Below are positions 50,740 to 62,028 of a DNA stretch of 64,000 bases, piece by piece. The DNA lies in contig NZ_JBBLYU010000002.1 of the NCBI RefSeq assembly GCF_037911135.1, forward strand, positions 124,001 through 188,000, written 5' to 3'. The notes under the pieces were generated by a model, which ran no database searches, was not told where the DNA came from, and saw only the letters and a list, made by a program, of their open reading frames with translations. Source of the DNA: Phaeobacter sp. A36a-5a (GTDB lineage Bacteria; Pseudomonadota; Alphaproteobacteria; Rhodobacterales; Rhodobacteraceae). Within the stretch, counting starts at the first letter, position 1; each line of letters begins with the position of its first letter. The position numbers were made by a program, and so were the translations under genes.

Positions 50740-50796
50740 ACATCCGTTGGTTGAGGCTTCAGATTGGGCCGGAACCACAATGTGAGGCCGTGCACA

Positions 50797-52056
50797 ATGA
50801 CGGATGCTGCTCTGCGCGCCACGCCGATAATCGACTGGCTGACTGCTGAAGGACTAAGAGGGGCAAGCCGTCAGGAGATGCTGCAAGGCTTTTGCCAGAG
50901 GCTTGCTGACGACGGCGTGCCGCTCCTGCGGTTTCATCTGGCGCAGCGTGCCTATCACCCAAAATACGGTGGTATCGGCTTTAGCTGGACCCGCGCGGAC
51001 GGCTTGTCGCATGAATTTTATGAACACAGCGATACACCGCGGGATGAGTGGCTCTACAGCACCTTCTATTATATGTTGGAACGCCAAGTGCCTGAGTTTC
51101 GCACCAAACTGACCGGGCATGTGCTGGAGCGGTTTCCTGCACTAGCGCAGTTCAAACAGCGCGGGGCCACGGATTACTTTGCGCTGGCAATGCGCTTTGG
51201 TGATTTTGCCGATGCCCCTTTTGATCCTAAGCGGCCGGGAGAGGGCATCCTGTCATCCTGGTCAACCGATCATCTCGATGGTTTCTCAGAGGCGGATCTC
51301 ACGTTGATCCGTTTTATCTACCCGCATCTGGCGCTGGCGCTGCGGGCGGCCTCTGCCCAGCAGATGGCCAAGGATCTGCTTCAGGTCTATCTCGGTCGCG
51401 ATGCTGGTCAGCGGGTTCTGTCAGGAGAAATACAGCGGGGCTCGTCACGCCAGATTGATGCGGTGATCTGCTATTTCGATCTGAAAGGCTTTACCCAACT
51501 GGCTGAGCAAATTCCGGGCGCCGAATTGATCGACATGATTAACGACTACTTTGGTCTGGCGGTCGAGACCATTCAGACCCATGGAGGGAATATCCTCAAA
51601 TTCATGGGTGATGGCATATTGGCGATGTTTGACCTTGGCAGTATCGGCGAAGATGCAACAGCAGCGCTCGCGGCGGCCAGTGGCTTGCAGAGCAAGATAC
51701 GCAATCGCAATGTCGAGCGTGCGCAGCAGGGTAACCCGGTTGCTGATTTCACGCTGGCCCTGCATGCCGGCGAAATCCTCTATGGTAATATAGGATCTGA
51801 GAACCGGTTGGATTTCACGGTGATCGGACCAACCGTCAACCTGACGGCACGGCTGTCAGGTATGCACGCCTCTGTTGGTCGCAGCATCATTGTCTCGGAA
51901 CAGGTTCAACGGGCAGCCCAGCCGACCAGTCACGATCTGGTGTCGCTGGGTCGCTATATGCTGCGCGGTGTTGCCGAGCCGGTTGAGCTCTTCACGATTT
52001 ACGAAGGCAGCGCAGCGGGCCTTTCTGATCGGGCGTCAGAACAACGCTCAGCCTGA
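50797..52056 (+). CDS. adenylate/guanylate cyclase with N-terminal sensory region
   Basis: 419 residues from the ATG at 50797; an earlier in-frame GTG-like start is less likely. The class III cyclase domain is residues ~225-400: CYFDLKGFTQLAEQIPG with the first metal Asp, GGNILKFMGDGILAMF with the second, and GSENRLDFTVIGPTVNLTARL. The first ~200 residues are a soluble domain with conserved hydrophobic/aromatic residues (QRAYHPKYGGIGFSWTRADG) and no membrane helix; I do not recognise it. It would make cAMP or cGMP in the cytoplasm in response to an unknown signal. Confidence 0.87.
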   Translation: MTDAALRATPIIDWLTAEGLRGASRQEMLQGFCQRLADDGVPLLRFHLAQRAYHPKYGGIGFSWTRADGLSHEFYEHSDTPRDEWLYSTFYYMLERQVPEFRTKLTGHVLERFPALAQFKQRGATDYFALAMRFGDFADAPFDPKRPGEGILSSWSTDHLDGFSEADLTLIRFIYPHLALALRAASAQQMAKDLLQVYLGRDAGQRVLSGEIQRGSSRQIDAVICYFDLKGFTQLAEQIPGAELIDMINDYFGLAVETIQTHGGNILKFMGDGILAMFDLGSIGEDATAALAAASGLQSKIRNRNVERAQQGNPVADFTLALHAGEILYGNIGSENRLDFTVIGPTVNLTARLSGMHASVGRSIIVSEQVQRAAQPTSHDLVSLGRYMLRGVAEPVELFTIYEGSAAGLSDRASEQRSA

Positions 52057-52195
52057 ACAAAGGTAAAAATTGCCATAATTTACGCATTTTTTCCGCGTAG
52101 AGCAGAGCTGGGACAGATTATGGCCAACGAGATTCGTGCAAGAAATCTTGAACTGCCATGCCTGACTTTATTGAGAGAGCAGCGAGGAAAGTGTG

Positions 52196-52489
52196 ATGAA
52201 ACTGGCAGTGCGCATACATGACCTGATAACCGTTGCGGCCGTTTTGTGTGCAACTGCCCCCATGGCATTTGCGGCTGGTGAATGGCCTGACGCGGGCGGA
52301 CCGGGCAATGGGAACGGCAATGGCAATGGTTGGGGCAATGGTTGGGGCAACGGCGGGGGCAATGGGAACGGCAACGGCAATGGCCAGACCGTGCCTGAGA
52401 TCGACGTCAGCGCAGGTATGCTCGCCGTGGCTGCGGTCGCCGCTGCTTTGCTTCTGAGCTGGGAGTTGCGCCGGCGCCGGTCTGTCTAG
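52196..52489 (+). CDS. VPEID-CTERM sorting-signal protein, Gly/Asn-rich
   Basis: 97 residues from the ATG at 52196 (GAGGAAAGTG upstream; GTG 52193 also possible). The signal peptide is residues 1-27 (ITVAAVLCATAPMAFA). Residues 37-63 are an almost pure Gly/Asn tract with two Trp. It ends with the VPEID-CTERM tripartite signal: VPEID (66-70), a hydrophobic helix (VSAGMLAVAAVAAALLLSW) and RRRR-SV. Such proteins are substrates of exosortase E, which is encoded convergently 44 bases away, so the helix should be recognised and the protein processed or anchored at the surface. The mature part is only ~38 residues, mostly low complexity, so a structural or spacer role is likely. Confidence 0.88.
   Translation: MKLAVRIHDLITVAAVLCATAPMAFAAGEWPDAGGPGNGNGNGNGWGNGWGNGGGNGNGNGNGQTVPEIDVSAGMLAVAAVAAALLLSWELRRRRSV
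52306..52386 (+). repeat. GGCAAT/GGCAAC short tandem repeat inside the VPEID-CTERM gene
   Basis: Repeats of GGCAATGG/GGCAACGG-like units encode the Gly/Asn tract. Such low-complexity runs can change length by slippage. Confidence 0.7.
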
Positions 52490-52533
52490 AACCAATGGCT
52501 GCCAGGGCGTCGCTTGAGTCAACCATTCTTGAC

Positions 52534-54165
52534 CTAGATAAGTGTCCAGTTCCCGGTCGCAAAGGCAACATAGGCGATCAGGGCATTTGCCACCATATGG
52601 GCCAATATGGCGGCCGGTAACCCGCCCCCACGCAGATATAGGGCGCCAAAGATTGCGCCAGCGGCCATACCAAGCGCGAAGCGGTCATGCATCAGACCGA
52701 ACAGAAGGCTGCTGACGACCAAGGCGATAACCGCCCGTAGAACCTGACCCTGCCCGGCCATGCGGCGCAGCAGATACCCGCGAAAGAACAGCTCTTCGAT
52801 GATGGGCACCAGAATTATGGTCCCGAGCAGGCGTGTCGCAATCCATAGGGTATCCCGGTGCTCTGTAATGTTGCCACGGCTGATGTCGGGTGTGGCCATC
52901 ACGATCCAGACGGCTGCAATTGCGGCCCCGGCGGTGATATCCATAGGGCGTGGCCTGTAGGCCAGCGCCCTAAGGGCAGGCCAGAACAACAGCAATGCGG
53001 CTGCCATCATTGCGGTACGCAGCGGATATCCGTCGGCAGGTTCTGCCCAGATTGCAGAAACCAATACGCCGCTCAGCATCATCACGACAAAAGGCACTAT
53101 GCTCGCGATCAGCATATCGGCGCGCAGCGGTGGCAGGTCGGCGGTTGCGGCGGCCACCCTAGCGGGGTTGCTCTGCAACCAGCGAGAGCGATGGGCAATC
53201 GCCAGGATCAGCAGCGCAAGACAGGTGAACATCAGCCAGCCGGCATAGCTGTGAAATCCGTTGACCGCATGTTCCGGTGCAATCCAGGCGCCGATCAGGA
53301 TCAGTATAGCGATACGCGCGACATTGAAGCCCCAGCTGAGCAGCAGAGCGGCGGGAAACAGGAACAGCCAATATCGTGTCTGCCTGAGATCGCGGCCCAT
53401 CAACAGCGCATAAAGCCCCATAAAGGTCGTGACGAGGGCAAACCCTTCGACGCCTGAGCAGGGTTCGCCGATCTCCACCAGAAAACCGTCGACACGGATC
53501 AGATGCAACGCCGGATCGGACCAGACAGTGGCACCTGAGTTTTCCAGAACCCATGTCACGAGGAGGAACGTCACCGACGTCAGCGCTTCTATGTTCCAGA
53601 TCGGCTCCATCATGCGAGTGATATCGGGCATGACCAGTGCCACAAGAAGCGCCAGGATCAGAGGCAGGCCGCAGCCGCGCAGCCAGACAACCCAATCTCG
53701 AAGTGGCATCAGGGCCAGCAGACCGCCTAGCCCGGCGATGCCGCCGCCTAGGCAGACCAGAATAAGGGTCGGCGAAATCCATGCGTTGATACCACTGGGC
53801 CCAAACAGGGCCAGCGGGACCAGCGCGATCAGAAGACCGACGAGGTTCAGGATAACTGCCGATGGGCGTTGCGAGGCGCGCCCGACAAATGCGGCCAGCG
53901 CAGTATAGGCGCTGCGCACCAGCACAAGATAAAGGCTGAGCACGGTCAACAACGCCAGCAAGCGCCCGGCGAGTGATCGCACGGTGGTGCAGGCCAGATC
54001 CGCGCCGGTGAATTTGCAATGCACATTGGCCAGCAGCTGGTAGGCGACCATGACAAGCAACAGCTCGGCAATCGCCAACCCGAGGATCAGGAATAACCGT
54101 CGGCTGCCCTTGCCCAACACCTGGTCGATAGGGCGCGACGGCTGTGGCTGATCAGATATCGACAT
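52534..54165 (-). CDS. xrtE: exosortase E fused to CPBP-family protease (XrtE)
   Basis: 543 residues with about 14 membrane helices. The exosortase half has the triad Cys236 (GEPCSGVEGF), Arg284 (NVARIAIL) and His305 (NGFHSYAGW), as in known exosortases. The C-terminal half is a CPBP (Abi/CAAX-like) intramembrane protease with EELFFRGYLLRRM (Glu457, Glu458, Arg462), FGLMHDRF (His493) and LAHMVANALI (His523, Asn527). This fusion is the exosortase E/protease form reported with VPEID-CTERM proteins. It would recognise and cut the VPEID protein at 52196. The 5' end overlaps the mipZ stop by 14 bases, so it is translated from the mipZ transcript. Confidence 0.92.
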   Translation of the reverse strand: MSISDQPQPSRPIDQVLGKGSRRLFLILGLAIAELLLVMVAYQLLANVHCKFTGADLACTTVRSLAGRLLALLTVLSLYLVLVRSAYTALAAFVGRASQRPSAVILNLVGLLIALVPLALFGPSGINAWISPTLILVCLGGGIAGLGGLLALMPLRDWVVWLRGCGLPLILALLVALVMPDITRMMEPIWNIEALTSVTFLLVTWVLENSGATVWSDPALHLIRVDGFLVEIGEPCSGVEGFALVTTFMGLYALLMGRDLRQTRYWLFLFPAALLLSWGFNVARIAILILIGAWIAPEHAVNGFHSYAGWLMFTCLALLILAIAHRSRWLQSNPARVAAATADLPPLRADMLIASIVPFVVMMLSGVLVSAIWAEPADGYPLRTAMMAAALLLFWPALRALAYRPRPMDITAGAAIAAVWIVMATPDISRGNITEHRDTLWIATRLLGTIILVPIIEELFFRGYLLRRMAGQGQVLRAVIALVVSSLLFGLMHDRFALGMAAGAIFGALYLRGGGLPAAILAHMVANALIAYVAFATGNWTLI

Positions 54166-54961
54166 CCACGCCTGGCAGATTCAGCGATTTCATCATGTCG
54201 CGCAGTTCCTGCCGTGCCGCGATGTTGGAGATATTCAGCTGTTTGACGCCAATATCCTTGAGGTCCAGCAGGGTCAGCCCGCGCGGAAACAACTCCCGGA
54301 ACACCACCCGTTCCGAAAATCCGGGGGCAACGCGGAATCCGATCCGTTTCGAAAGCATGGAAATCGCGCGTTCCATCTTTTCCTTGTTCACCATGCGCTG
54401 AGTGCCAACTCGATTTCGGATCACAATCCAGTCAATTGGTTTCAGGCCAGCCTGCGCGCGCAACTGTCGCGCGTTCCAGACCATTTCGGAATAAACGGAC
54501 GGCCCGGTGATCTTTTCACCCTTTTGGTCAGTATGCGCCAGGAGGTCGAAATCGACAAAACTGTCGTTCAGTGGCGTGATCAGCGTGTCGGCCAGGGAAT
54601 GGGCGACCTGACTGAGCCGGGTGTGCGAACCCGGGCAGTCGATCAGGATAAAGTCGTTGTTGGGTTCCAGCTCGGAGACCGCCGCAGACAGCCGGTGGTC
54701 ATAGATGTTCTCGCCGGGTTGCAGGCTTTCGGGATCGATTTCGGGCAGCTCATGCAGCTCCACCAGCGGCAGGTCCAGCGCGGCCTTTTCCATGAACGCC
54801 TTGCGGTTTTCCAGATAGCGCCCCAGTGAACGTTGACGCAAGTCGAGGTCCAGGGCGGCAATCTTGTATCCCAATCGGGCCAGGGTGGTTGCCACATGCA
54901 TGGAAACGGTGGATTTGCCCGCGCCCCCTTTTTCGTTGCCGACGACAATAATATGCGCCAC
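54152..54961 (-). CDS. mipZ: division-plane positioning ATPase MipZ
   Basis: 269 residues from a GTG at 54961 with GGGGGAAG six bases upstream; a TTG at 54976 is possible but would include that site. It is a ParA/MinD-type ATPase with deviant Walker A EKGGAGKSTVSMHV, and the MipZ blocks LDLDLRQRSLGRYLENR, LIDCPGSHTRLSQVAHSLADTLITPLNDSFVDFDLL. MipZ forms a gradient from the ParB-bound poles and inhibits FtsZ near them in alphaproteobacteria. Its end overlaps xrtE. Confidence 0.95.
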   Translation of the reverse strand: MAHIIVVGNEKGGAGKSTVSMHVATTLARLGYKIAALDLDLRQRSLGRYLENRKAFMEKAALDLPLVELHELPEIDPESLQPGENIYDHRLSAAVSELEPNNDFILIDCPGSHTRLSQVAHSLADTLITPLNDSFVDFDLLAHTDQKGEKITGPSVYSEMVWNARQLRAQAGLKPIDWIVIRNRVGTQRMVNKEKMERAISMLSKRIGFRVAPGFSERVVFRELFPRGLTLLDLKDIGVKQLNISNIAARQELRDMMKSLNLPGVDVDI

Positions 54962-55130
54962 GTTCGCTTCCCCCAATCACTGCGCAAAATACCGCGCATT
55001 TTGGGATGAGTATACTGCCCGCGCGAATCGATGGAAAGCGGGATATCCGCACGTTAGGCCCTGTTTTAGGGTCTAGGGTTCATCCCGCGTTAACCGGAGA
55101 GGGCGCTGCGCGGGCAGGCGTGGCACCAAT

Positions 55131-60058: not shown

Positions 60059-60661
60059 TCAGTCAAGCGCCCAACCCTCCGGTTTGAACATGGGATCTGC
60101 GTAGTGGCTTATCTCCATCTCGATCCCATGGGACAACTGGCTGTTTTTGAGCGCTTCTGGTGCGGGATGCCTGTAGACGGCGTCGTTGCCATCAATGGTT
60201 GCGGCGTCCTGGTCCTTCTTGGCACCCAGCCGTTCGGCAAGACGGATCGAATCCAGGTTCTTGGGGTCAATATAGCTGACCGCCCCATCCCAGCCGAGCG
60301 TATTGTAATAGTAGTTCCGTGCCGCGTGGGTTGCTTCCAGCGCATAGCCTTTACCTGCTGCATCGGGCCAGATGATCCAGGCGATCTCACGCTCGGGCCA
60401 GCCAGCAGGCATCCAGCCACCGGCCATGCCGTAAGTTTCCTCGGTGGTCTTATCGTGGATCATCCACATGCCAAAGCCACGCACCTGCCAGTGGCCGATT
60501 TCGGCGGCATAGAGCATCCAGGCCTCATAGGGGTTCAGTGGACCGCCCATGAAACGCGCACGATAGGAACTGAACGTGGCTTTGAAGTCGGGATAATCCA
60601 CGGCTTCCGGGCCACGTAGAATCAGGCGCTTGGTTTCGATTACGGGGATGGACGATGGCAT
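60059..60661 (-). CDS. GNAT family N-acetyltransferase (RimJ/RimL-like)
   Basis: 200 residues from the ATG at 60661. The start VIETKRLILRGPEAVDYPDF and the acetyl-CoA region IIWPDAAGKGYALEATHAARNYYYNTLGW, with SYIDPKNLDSIRLAERLGAK, are those of the Acetyltransf_3 group that modify ribosomal protein N-termini or other amines. It is one of several related genes here and ends like its neighbours (YRHPAPEAL). The substrate is unknown. Confidence 0.85.
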   Translation of the reverse strand: MPSSIPVIETKRLILRGPEAVDYPDFKATFSSYRARFMGGPLNPYEAWMLYAAEIGHWQVRGFGMWMIHDKTTEETYGMAGGWMPAGWPEREIAWIIWPDAAGKGYALEATHAARNYYYNTLGWDGAVSYIDPKNLDSIRLAERLGAKKDQDAATIDGNDAVYRHPAPEALKNSQLSHGIEMEISHYADPMFKPEGWALD

Positions 60662-60698
60662 CAGATGCCCCCCGCGCTGAAGTCGCAGTGGCAATAGA

Positions 60699-61265
60699 TC
60701 ATTGAAGGCGCCCTGTGATTGCAGGCCGGTCCAGCAGATGTTTGCGGGGCTGATGGCGCCAGGTGCGCATATTGTGTGCAGGCGCGAGGCGGAACGATAC
60801 CAATTTTTCTGGGCGGGCGCCGATTCGCTGCGCTAGGGCAATGGAGGCTGCGTTGTCCTCGGGAATGAAGGAGGCGATGCTGCTCCAGTTTTTCTCGCGG
60901 AACAGCCAGTCGAGAACGACCTCTGCGGCCTCGCTTGCGTAGCCTTTACCACGGGCATCCTCGGTCAGGTGCCACGAAAGCTCCGGCTCTGGCCAGCCCT
61001 TCGGGAACCAGGGGCCAATCATGCCGACCGGGCGCCCGGTATTGCGCTCGATGAGGGCGAATAATCCGTAACCACGCAGGTGCCAGTGGCCGATGATCGT
61101 CGCTATCGACCACCACAGCGCATCAGGATCGTCGACCGCGTCGATGAAGCGCGGCGCACCAATGCGCAGGAAGGCATCATGCGCGTCAAAACCGGCCTCC
61201 GCAGGGGAGACCAACAATAGCCTCTTCGTCATGAGGCTAGGGAAACGATTGTCTGTGTCTGGCAT
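60699..61265 (-). CDS. GNAT family N-acetyltransferase
   Basis: About 188 residues from the ATG at 61265. A longer open frame to 61445 is not conserved-looking. Motifs: MTKRLLLVSPAEAGFDAHDAF at the start, HLRGYGLFALIERNTGRPVGMIGPWFPKGWPEPELSWHL, DARGKGYASEAAEVVLDWL and FIPEDNAASIALAQRIGAR. It is related to the genes on both sides, so local duplication is likely. The substrate is unknown. It is the least typical copy at its N-terminus. Confidence 0.8.
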   Translation of the reverse strand: MPDTDNRFPSLMTKRLLLVSPAEAGFDAHDAFLRIGAPRFIDAVDDPDALWWSIATIIGHWHLRGYGLFALIERNTGRPVGMIGPWFPKGWPEPELSWHLTEDARGKGYASEAAEVVLDWLFREKNWSSIASFIPEDNAASIALAQRIGARPEKLVSFRLAPAHNMRTWRHQPRKHLLDRPAITGRLQ

Positions 61266-61441
61266 ACCCACACTCGTTTCGGCCCCTGCCGCGCGCGCAC
61301 CAGTGACCTGTTTCGGCATCAATGACGGCTCGATCATGCCAGATGCCGGGAAACAAGGGGTTAAGGCGCTGTTGCGCTGTGGCAAGGCGGCCACAGCGGA
61401 GCGGATGTGGGTAAAGACGCGTGTGGGAAGGTGGGTGGCCA

Positions 61442-61516
61442 TCATGCGTAGGCCTCCGGTCCGCGCAGGACCAAGTGTTCGGTTTCAAGCTGAAGGATAG
61501 CCGGGATCTGCATCAT
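61442..61516 (-). pseudogene. 24-codon remnant of another GNAT gene
   Basis: An ATG at 61516 overlaps the stop of the preceding acetyltransferase gene and opens MMQIPAILQLETEHLVLRGP, the exact kind of N-terminus seen in the two flanking GNATs (compare IETKRLILRGPE). It stops after 24 codons at 61442. It is probably the surviving start of a fourth tandem copy, lost by deletion or frameshift. Confidence 0.5.
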
Positions 61517-62028
61517 GCCAGCCCCCGCAGATCATGCACGATCACCACGTCGTCGGCGCATTCGCCCTCTGCGTCGGGGTCGATAACACCGCCGAGACGC
61601 TGGCCCAGGGCGATTGATCGGTGGTTGTTCGGGTCGATAATATTGATCAGACTGTCCCAGCCGAAATTCTGTCGCGCCCAGGTCATGACAGCTTGCGCGG
61701 CCTCGGCAGCGATTCCCTTTCCTTCAGCTTCGGGGACGACGAACCAGCCCAGTTCCGGGCCGGGATAGCCGTCGGGTTGGTAAATCCCGACCTCGCCCGC
61801 ATAGGCGCCGGTTTCTCGGATTTCGACACCGAAGGGGCCGTACCCACGAAGTGTCCAAAGTGCCACATCCCCGGCCCAGACTCTCCACGCTTCGCCGCGC
61901 GGCAGGATGCCACGCTCGTAGCGGGCGCGTTCGGACGCAAAGAACGCGGCCCAATGCTCAAAATCCTCAAGCTTGGGGGCGCGCAGCGTCAGGCGCTCGG
62001 TCTGAAGGGTAGGGATGGAGGCGATCAT
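61513..62028 (-). CDS. GNAT family N-acetyltransferase
   Basis: 171 residues with IPTLQTERLTLRAPKLEDFEHW at the start, LRGYGPFGVEIRETGAYAGEVG, LGWFVVPEAEGKGIAAEAAQAVM (acetyl-CoA loop) and IIDPNNHRSIALGQRLGG. Same subgroup as the genes at 60059 and 60699. It starts 5 bases after the ffh stop, so it is likely in the ffh transcript. The substrate is unknown. Confidence 0.87.
   Translation of the reverse strand: MIASIPTLQTERLTLRAPKLEDFEHWAAFFASERARYERGILPRGEAWRVWAGDVALWTLRGYGPFGVEIRETGAYAGEVGIYQPDGYPGPELGWFVVPEAEGKGIAAEAAQAVMTWARQNFGWDSLINIIDPNNHRSIALGQRLGGVIDPDAEGECADDVVIVHDLRGLA

Follow-up and report, generated by a model that had tools for sequence, protein, structure and literature searches.

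The genes for a small VPEID-CTERM protein and for exosortase E (XrtE), in which an exosortase is fused to a CPBP-family protease, lie next to each other in Phaeobacter sp. A36a-5a (Rhodobacteraceae), within the 64,000-nucleotide stretch of contig NZ_JBBLYU010000002.1 (assembly GCF_037911135.1, positions 124,001 to 188,000) that we analyzed and call the window (Table 1). A prediction made earlier from the letters of the window had described two genes that converge 44 bases apart, one for a 97-residue protein with a signal peptide, a Gly/Asn tract and a VPEID-helix-RRRR end and the other for an enzyme with an intact exosortase triad and an intact CPBP motif set, and all of these features are present as described. 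The profile search suggested with this original prediction returned full-length matches that identify both proteins, to TIGR04161 for the substrate (59.2 bits, residues 66-96, profile positions 1-31 of 31, E 3e-16) and to TIGR04162 for XrtE (760.1 bits, residues 26-542, profile positions 2-516 of 516). On these two models, the pair is securely a member of a family already named by NCBI; what is new here is the comparative part, which concerns cargo size, selection, loss of the signal peptide and clades. We found no paper using the name VPEID-CTERM or exosortase E in the open-access literature that was searched.

Table 1. Features of the substrate and xrtE genes, in window coordinates
Feature	Position	Strand	Basis or remark
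Likely ribosome-binding site GAGGAA	52184..52189	+	six bases 5' of the substrate ATG
VPEID-CTERM substrate gene, 97 residues	52196..52489	+	TIGR04161, 59.2 bits versus cut-off 33
Predicted signal peptide, 26 residues, ends AFA	52196..52273	+	heuristic; pN/pS 0.65
Mature Gly/Asn/Trp segment including VPE, 42 residues (18 G, 10 N, 3 W)	52274..52399	+	
VPEID-CTERM domain: VPEID, transmembrane helix, RRRR tail (residues 66-96)	52391..52483	+	TIGR04161
Gap between the converging stop codons, 44 bases	52490..52533		
xrtE, exosortase E/CPBP protease fusion, 543 residues	52534..54165	-	TIGR04162, 760.1 bits versus cut-off 150
Exosortase core, residues 229-323, with Cys236, Arg284 and His305	53197..53481	-	TIGR04178, 59.9 bits versus 23
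CPBP (Rce1-like) glutamic protease core, residues 440-528	52582..52848	-	PF02517, 66.3 bits versus 22.4

Translation of the substrate from the ATG yields 97 residues; a GTG one codon upstream would yield 98. The predicted signal peptide, MKLAVRIHDLITVAAVLCATAPMAFA, was delimited by a home-made heuristic that combines an h-region with an A-X-A rule, and it is followed by a segment of 42 residues that ends with VPE, the VPEID motif, a single hydrophobic helix and an RRRRSV end. A consensus scan of 52050-52600 detected two plus-strand stems, both inside the substrate gene, and no terminator-like site in the 44 intergenic bases. The search of the rest of the genome revealed no further VPEID-CTERM protein over the cut-off (next match 10.6 bits, E 3.65) and no VPLPA-CTERM match, and the one XrtE is the single exosortase-family match of the strain. 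Exactly one VPEID-CTERM match is found in each of the seven genomes of the genus. Surface sorting and an action of the CPBP half on the anchored end, which the original prediction also included, are putative. The proposed pairing of one enzyme with one substrate holds for this genome and this genus, but it is not absolute, as locus L156, discussed below, encodes two mini-proteins.

The CPBP core of XrtE contains E457, E458, R462, H493, H523 and N527, arranged in EExxxR, H and HxxxN motifs, and residues 353-542 also passed the CAAX prenyl protease-related model TIGR03008 (106.2 bits versus 81.05). The XrtA (38 bits versus 208) and XrtD (9.9 versus 400) models stayed below their cut-offs, as did Mrt_core (36.3 versus 100) and MYXO-CTERM (15.7 versus 20). 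Cys236, Arg284 and His305 are invariant in 44/44 aligned rows, and the six CPBP residues in all 43 rows that reach these columns; in the 44th row, G123, XrtE is interrupted by an in-frame TAA that lies past the exosortase part and ahead of the CPBP motifs (L091:6306-7976). The substrate adjoining this interrupted enzyme is without a signal peptide. Of the 54 rows in a second set, four differ at the residues that were checked: L180 and L181 at Cys50 and Cys59 only, L178 because its sequence leaves the family after the exosortase part, probably through a broken frame, and L174, from a Henriciella metagenome-assembled genome (MAG; L174:6001-7704), by C236Y, H493Y and N527A together, next to a neighboring tail without the VPE motif. 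This joint decay, seen in a single MAG, fits two halves that would work on one pathway.

The charge of the loops suggests how XrtE is placed in the membrane. Mean Lys+Arg counts per loop over the 54 rows are ≥2.0 in loops assigned inside and ≤1.1 in loops assigned outside, and by these counts the Cys236 and His305 loops are assigned to the periplasm, with E457 and E458 halfway along a helix that leads from the outside inward. The AlphaFold2 model of the enzyme has a mean predicted local distance difference test score (pLDDT) of 89.9 and a predicted template modeling score of 0.80. Cys50 (42/44 rows) and Cys59 (44/44 rows), encoded at window positions 53989-54018, are conserved at a loop also assigned to the periplasm, and it is possible that they form a disulfide.

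We counted XrtE over the TIGR04162 cut-off and VPEID-CTERM at E ≤0.001 in 390 genomes of the order, and found XrtE in 44, VPEID-CTERM in 43 (34 over its own cut-off) and both in 41 (Fisher p 2e-49, uncorrected for phylogeny), with exactly one VPEID-CTERM match in each of the 43. The pairing of XrtE and VPEID-CTERM is not due to chance. The two genes are on different contigs in two of the 41 genomes (G262, G311), and VPEID-CTERM occurs without XrtE in G178 and G353. XrtE occurs without a VPEID-CTERM model match in G272, G303 and G379, all with PE[IV]-helix-Arg candidates near xrtE, in the form of one small protein each in G272 and G303. The genes flanking the pair change from lineage to lineage, which would favor a vestigial or chance pairing of two unrelated neighbors; the profile scores, the co-occurrence, the seven of seven genus genomes and the selection described below contradict this explanation, and we regard it as next to inconceivable. 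In a class-wide sample of 289 genomes, XrtE exceeded the cut-off in three, two of which belong to the window's own family; among more distant records, those of a Planctomycetaceae MAG and of a Hyphomicrobiaceae MAG are over it as well. When 200 genomes of the phylum were searched with TIGR03008, 4 had a match over the cut-off, namely three XrtE genomes and G498, and 32 others a match below it. A stand-alone, exosortase-linked TIGR03008 protease had been considered as outside support and was dropped, because the genomes over the cut-off are XrtE genomes or contain the G498 fusion and the other matches are all below it. This last protein, from another class of the phylum, is a 547-residue exosortase/CPBP fusion (L213:1498-3141).

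The comparison of cargos used 85 distinct substrates (55 convergent with xrtE, 25 in tandem, 4 unlinked and 1 other), with the presence of PE as the entry condition. Excluded were G379, which has several ordinary-sized proteins, L174, which has no VPE motif, the second mini-protein of L156, duplicates, and 10 of the 56 named loci, for which no substrate was found in the fetched flanks. These 56 loci (L129-L184) are part of 79, of which L185-L207 matched the CPBP part only, and some of them are the same records as genomes of the samples. Measured with the heuristic from the signal-peptide cut, or from the start if there is none, to VPE, the cargo spans 8 to 62 residues, with 10-62 (median 27) in convergent, 9-23 (median 14) in tandem and 8-15 in unlinked arrangements; the cut was placed too early in at least one row (G001), so that the length of that cargo is overstated. 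A short, low-complexity cargo is the habit of the VPEID-CTERM family, to which G379 is a real exception, and the Gly/Asn/Trp segment of the window is thus a local version of that habit. The mature substrate had been thought unusual for a sorted cargo, a view that we do not retain, as a very short segment is the family rule.

VPLPA-CTERM proteins served as a control in 101 genomes of the same order, 42 of which have between 1 and 27 matches, and among the matches listed the open reading frames are mostly of 180-550 residues, with few below 120. Such a sharp difference in size and copy number argues against the view that the substrate is a structural, glycine-rich surface protein, small by coincidence and sorted in the ordinary exosortase manner with no particular role for peptides, and so does the loss of the signal peptide on more than one occasion. 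The Gly/Asn-rich sequence of the window is compatible with a flexible surface coat, and the XrtE of G379 is found near ordinary-sized proteins with matching tails, both of which would suit ordinary sorting; we nonetheless consider it unlikely.

The cargo differs strongly between genera, the CTERM helix being the part that can be aligned across them, and the Gly/Asn/Trp cargo of the window is its genus's own version. Trp makes up 9.1% of the convergent cargos and Trp, Phe and Tyr together 13.5%; two Cys are present in 14 of the 85 cargos and a single one in 1, and Lys in 4. Some membrane proteases process peptide pheromones, and by analogy XrtE and its CPBP half could mature a secreted signal or an antimicrobial that is set free and not anchored. 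The peptide size of nearly all cargos, their aromatic residues, the rarity of a single Cys next to pairs, the divergence between genera and a match of the CPBP half to the MroQ model, albeit far under the cut-off (32.8 bits versus 270), are in line with a released peptide. Against this, the Gly/Asn repeat of the window is unlike a defined signal, no receptor or regulator was recognized among the recurrent neighbor genes, most of which were read by eye only, and opinion in a passage of PMC11980579 favors transfer over release by exosortases, so that we find release quite unlikely.

The ratio of nonsynonymous to synonymous differences per site (pN/pS) was computed from the seven genus genomes as uncorrected proportions, in an alignment whose mature part has 128 gap cells. 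It amounts to 0.65 for the signal peptide, 0.15 for the 39 residues of the mature segment before VPE and 0.13 for the CTERM domain. The mature segment is under purifying selection in the genus, and the signal peptide hardly so. The Gly/Asn/Trp repeat is maintained at the protein level although its codons drift, so that it is more than filler.

An XrtE tree of 89 rows, built with a quick method, rooted on L180 and L181 and containing several long branches (G123, L178, L183 and short or duplicate rows were left out), separates a mostly convergent clade of 56 rows, which holds the window, from a mostly tandem clade of 30 rows, with Shimodaira-Hasegawa-like approximate likelihood ratio supports of 94 and 91, respectively; G272 falls outside both. 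The signal peptide was not always retained. Fourteen convergent substrates have no strongly hydrophobic stretch in the whole open frame before VPE, the highest 11-residue hydrophobic mean being 1.30 in one of them and below 1 in the other 13. The heuristic had scored 17 of the 55 convergent rows as being without a signal peptide, and G124, L132 and L149 were judged by eye to have one. A GGAG-type box is present just 5' of the last ATG in 10 of the 14 (AGGAGG in L102, L159, L161 and L175), and the part predicted to be exported has an aromatic-rich start, such as MWWDSWRIFFGGG, followed by a Ser/Thr/Gly linker. On the tree, the state of the signal peptide requires three changes among 78 rows, 13 of which are without it. 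According to a passage of PMC3237569, a signal peptide is found without exception in LPXTG and PEP-CTERM proteins; given these 14 substrates, that statement does not extend to VPEID-CTERM proteins.

The gene that directly precedes the substrate gene in the tandem clade codes for a protein of several domains, 455-1844 residues long as called (median 1049). SdrD_B repeats were detected in 6/6 proteins tested and a thioester domain at E ≤0.1 in 5/6, two of which exceeded the gathering score. The last 210 residues contain thioester-type Cys and Gln motifs, with the Cys motif and Cys-Gln bond as outlined in part of PMC8092201, and a C-terminal CxC in 16/16. When the model of this C-terminal domain (pLDDT 85.9) was compared with the PDB, ranks 1-10 were thioester domains of Gram-positive adhesins, three of them at E ≤0.001; a search of the PDB with its sequence gave nothing meaningful (best E 0.56). 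No signal peptide was evident in the tandem-clade adhesin sequences inspected by eye. All 14 tandem genomes whose substrate matches the model contain the adhesin (14/16 when G272 and G303 are added), as do all 4 unlinked or XrtE-less genomes and none of 25 convergent ones; for the named loci, it was seen in the fetched flanks of 9/12 tandem and 1/33 convergent ones. Among the labeled rows of the tree, the arrangement requires two changes and the adhesin three, with G262 and G311 marked as adhesin-bearing though their adhesin is on another contig than xrtE. We ruled out that the adhesin and VPEID-CTERM always go together, since 8 of 26 adhesin genomes are without a VPEID-CTERM match, and no convincing PE-helix-Arg mini-gene turned up when the sequence that follows the adhesin in these eight was searched with a pattern. 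The position of the adhesin gene before the substrate in the sister clade points toward the cell surface, and this lead toward adhesion comes from that clade and not from the window. Proteins with a thioester domain and SdrD_B repeats are encoded before a VPEIS-type mini-gene in Rhodobacterales at L062:2940-5777, L063:8535-11579, L107:3440-6196 and 13 further loci.

The mini-protein could also be a membrane partner, whose helix would regulate or dock XrtE or, in the sister clade, anchor the adhesin, the exported part being a spacer. That the CTERM helix is the alignable part points in this direction, as do G178, where the mini-protein persists beside the adhesin without an exosortase match, and L154, G262, G311 and G353, where mini-gene and adhesin gene are still together but xrtE is inverted, on another contig or not found. 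A membrane partner is hard to reconcile with the PE of all 85 substrates, which was required for the count, and the VPE of 82 of them, with the purifying selection on the mature part in the window's genus and with the almost perfect co-occurrence of XrtE and VPEID-CTERM, and we judge it quite unlikely.

We consider it probable that the window encodes a dedicated exosortase E system whose processed product has the size of a peptide. The 97-residue precursor would pass through Sec, signal peptidase would remove 26 residues, and the C-terminal helix would stay in the inner membrane with the RRRR tail in the cytoplasm. The Cys236-Arg284-His305 site, at the periplasmic face, would then cut in or next to VPEID, and the peptide of about 42 residues would be passed to an acceptor, a lipid or a glycan, and on to the cell envelope; cutting followed by transfer is proposed here by analogy with the biology of exosortases in general. 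The CPBP site, within the membrane, would most likely act afterwards on the same substrate, for instance by breaking down the released helix. Participation of the CPBP half in the same pathway is suggested by the fusion itself, a Rosetta-stone link of the kind argued in part of PMC1569441, and by the finding, reported in PMC11980579, that a CPBP protease is able to cut and sort proteins on its own. We infer that the biological use would be display at the surface or adhesion, and not that of a free signal.

Several observations weigh against this proposal, the main ones being those from G379 and G178, which argue against a strict peptide-only and enzyme-dependent version of it. The XrtE of G379 is found near four candidate substrates of 187-483 residues with PEV-(helix)-FLWERRR tails (L074:8790-13980), missed by the VPEID-CTERM model, which represent a multi-substrate version of the system and suggest that XrtE is not restricted to peptides; searched with a DNA pattern for this tail, G379 gave five matches, of which three fall in those proteins, whereas seven other genomes gave none. 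G178 (L076) retains a VPEIS mini-protein and the thioester adhesin without any exosortase-family match (E ≤0.001), and the mini-protein may therefore act without the enzyme. In L156, two VPEID mini-proteins stand beside one xrtE, so that the pairing is not strictly one to one; no adhesin was found in the fetched flanks of this locus. The window's genome itself has no adhesin match (alignment A1, E ≤0.001), and the window belongs to the other clade. As for selection, the uncorrected pS has high values (0.57-0.68), and the alignment behind pN/pS is uncertain owing to the repeat. In the topology, helix 192-209 sits between two loops that both score outside and must for that reason be re-entrant or interfacial. 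Lastly, no solved relative of XrtE was detected by profile (E ≤1) or by Foldseek (E ≤0.001), which leaves the active-site geometry without template support, and no experiment on XrtE was found in the searched open-access literature.

The dedicated system may be part of a wider scheme, which, taken as a whole, strikes us as possible rather than probable. In it, exosortase E would be a peptide-display machine that joins a short peptide to the envelope, with an optional signal peptide and, in the sister clade, an adhesin-operon version. The product would be lineage specific, with 8-62 residues made of Gly/Asn/Trp repeats, aromatic-rich stretches or a two-Cys loop, and the signal peptide could be dispensable if the C-terminal helix is by itself able to bring the N terminus out. 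In the sister clade, a thioester-domain, SdrD-repeat adhesin of Gram-negative bacteria might then have the displayed peptide as its partner on the envelope side.

Within the systems described so far, the exosortase E/protease and VPEID-CTERM family shares with the window the same fusion, the same motif and the same gene adjacency, and nothing excludes membership. The XrtD/VPLPA-CTERM system of the same order also pairs an exosortase with substrates that end in a motif, a helix and a basic tail; it differs in its 1-27 matches per positive genome, in open reading frames that are, among the matches listed, mostly of 180-550 residues, and in the very low score of the XrtD model in the window. XrtD is not known to have a CPBP half. 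Myxosortase (MrtX and related CPBP proteases), for which experiments described in part of PMC11980579 showed cutting and sorting of MYXO-CTERM proteins, resembles the window system in that a CPBP-family protease acts on a motif, a helix and a basic tail. According to the abstract of PMC11980579, myxosortase was co-expressed with its substrate in laboratory E. coli. It works without an exosortase, and the Cys of its motif is thought, in the same passages, to be lipidated, whereas in the window an exosortase and the CPBP protease form one protein, Cys is absent from the motif, and the Mrt_core and MYXO-CTERM models remain under their cut-offs. Rhombosortase and GlyGly-CTERM provide a parallel for an enzyme paired with a single target, although the protease is unrelated; an excerpt of PMC3237569 calls an enzyme with a single target per genome dedicated and notes that such pairs tend to be adjacent. 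Finally, XrtE is of the same fusion type as four EpsH-like/CAAX-protease-like domain fusions reported in 2006, for which a passage of PMC1569441 argues a functional link.

Around the pair, a MipZ-family gene (PF09140, 387 bits; 54152-54976) lies on the same strand as xrtE and overlaps its start by 14 bases, an order that recurs in 8 loci (cluster c4). Upstream of the substrate gene and on its strand is an adenylate/guanylate cyclase-domain gene (50764-52056), whose cluster comprises only three same-genus loci among those examined. Neighbor genes were set aside as a clue in the window's clade, as the recurrence of the MipZ, MarR and homogentisate-type genes is confined to loci that are related. 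Farther away, three consecutive same-strand genes at 60059-62028 appear by eye to be GNAT acetyltransferase-like.

What exosortases attach to their targets is still a suggestion, as worded in a passage of PMC11980579. Many exosortase systems have many large substrates, whereas the genome of the window has one exosortase and one 97-residue substrate with a cargo of about 40 residues, which makes the pair an unusually clean test case for exosortase attachment. The whole modified product would be small enough for direct mass spectrometry, which would reveal both where the cut is made and which group is attached. The comparison of genomes gives a first functional lead for XrtE, the thioester adhesin of one clade, and also opens the way to test the purpose of the fused CPBP protease.

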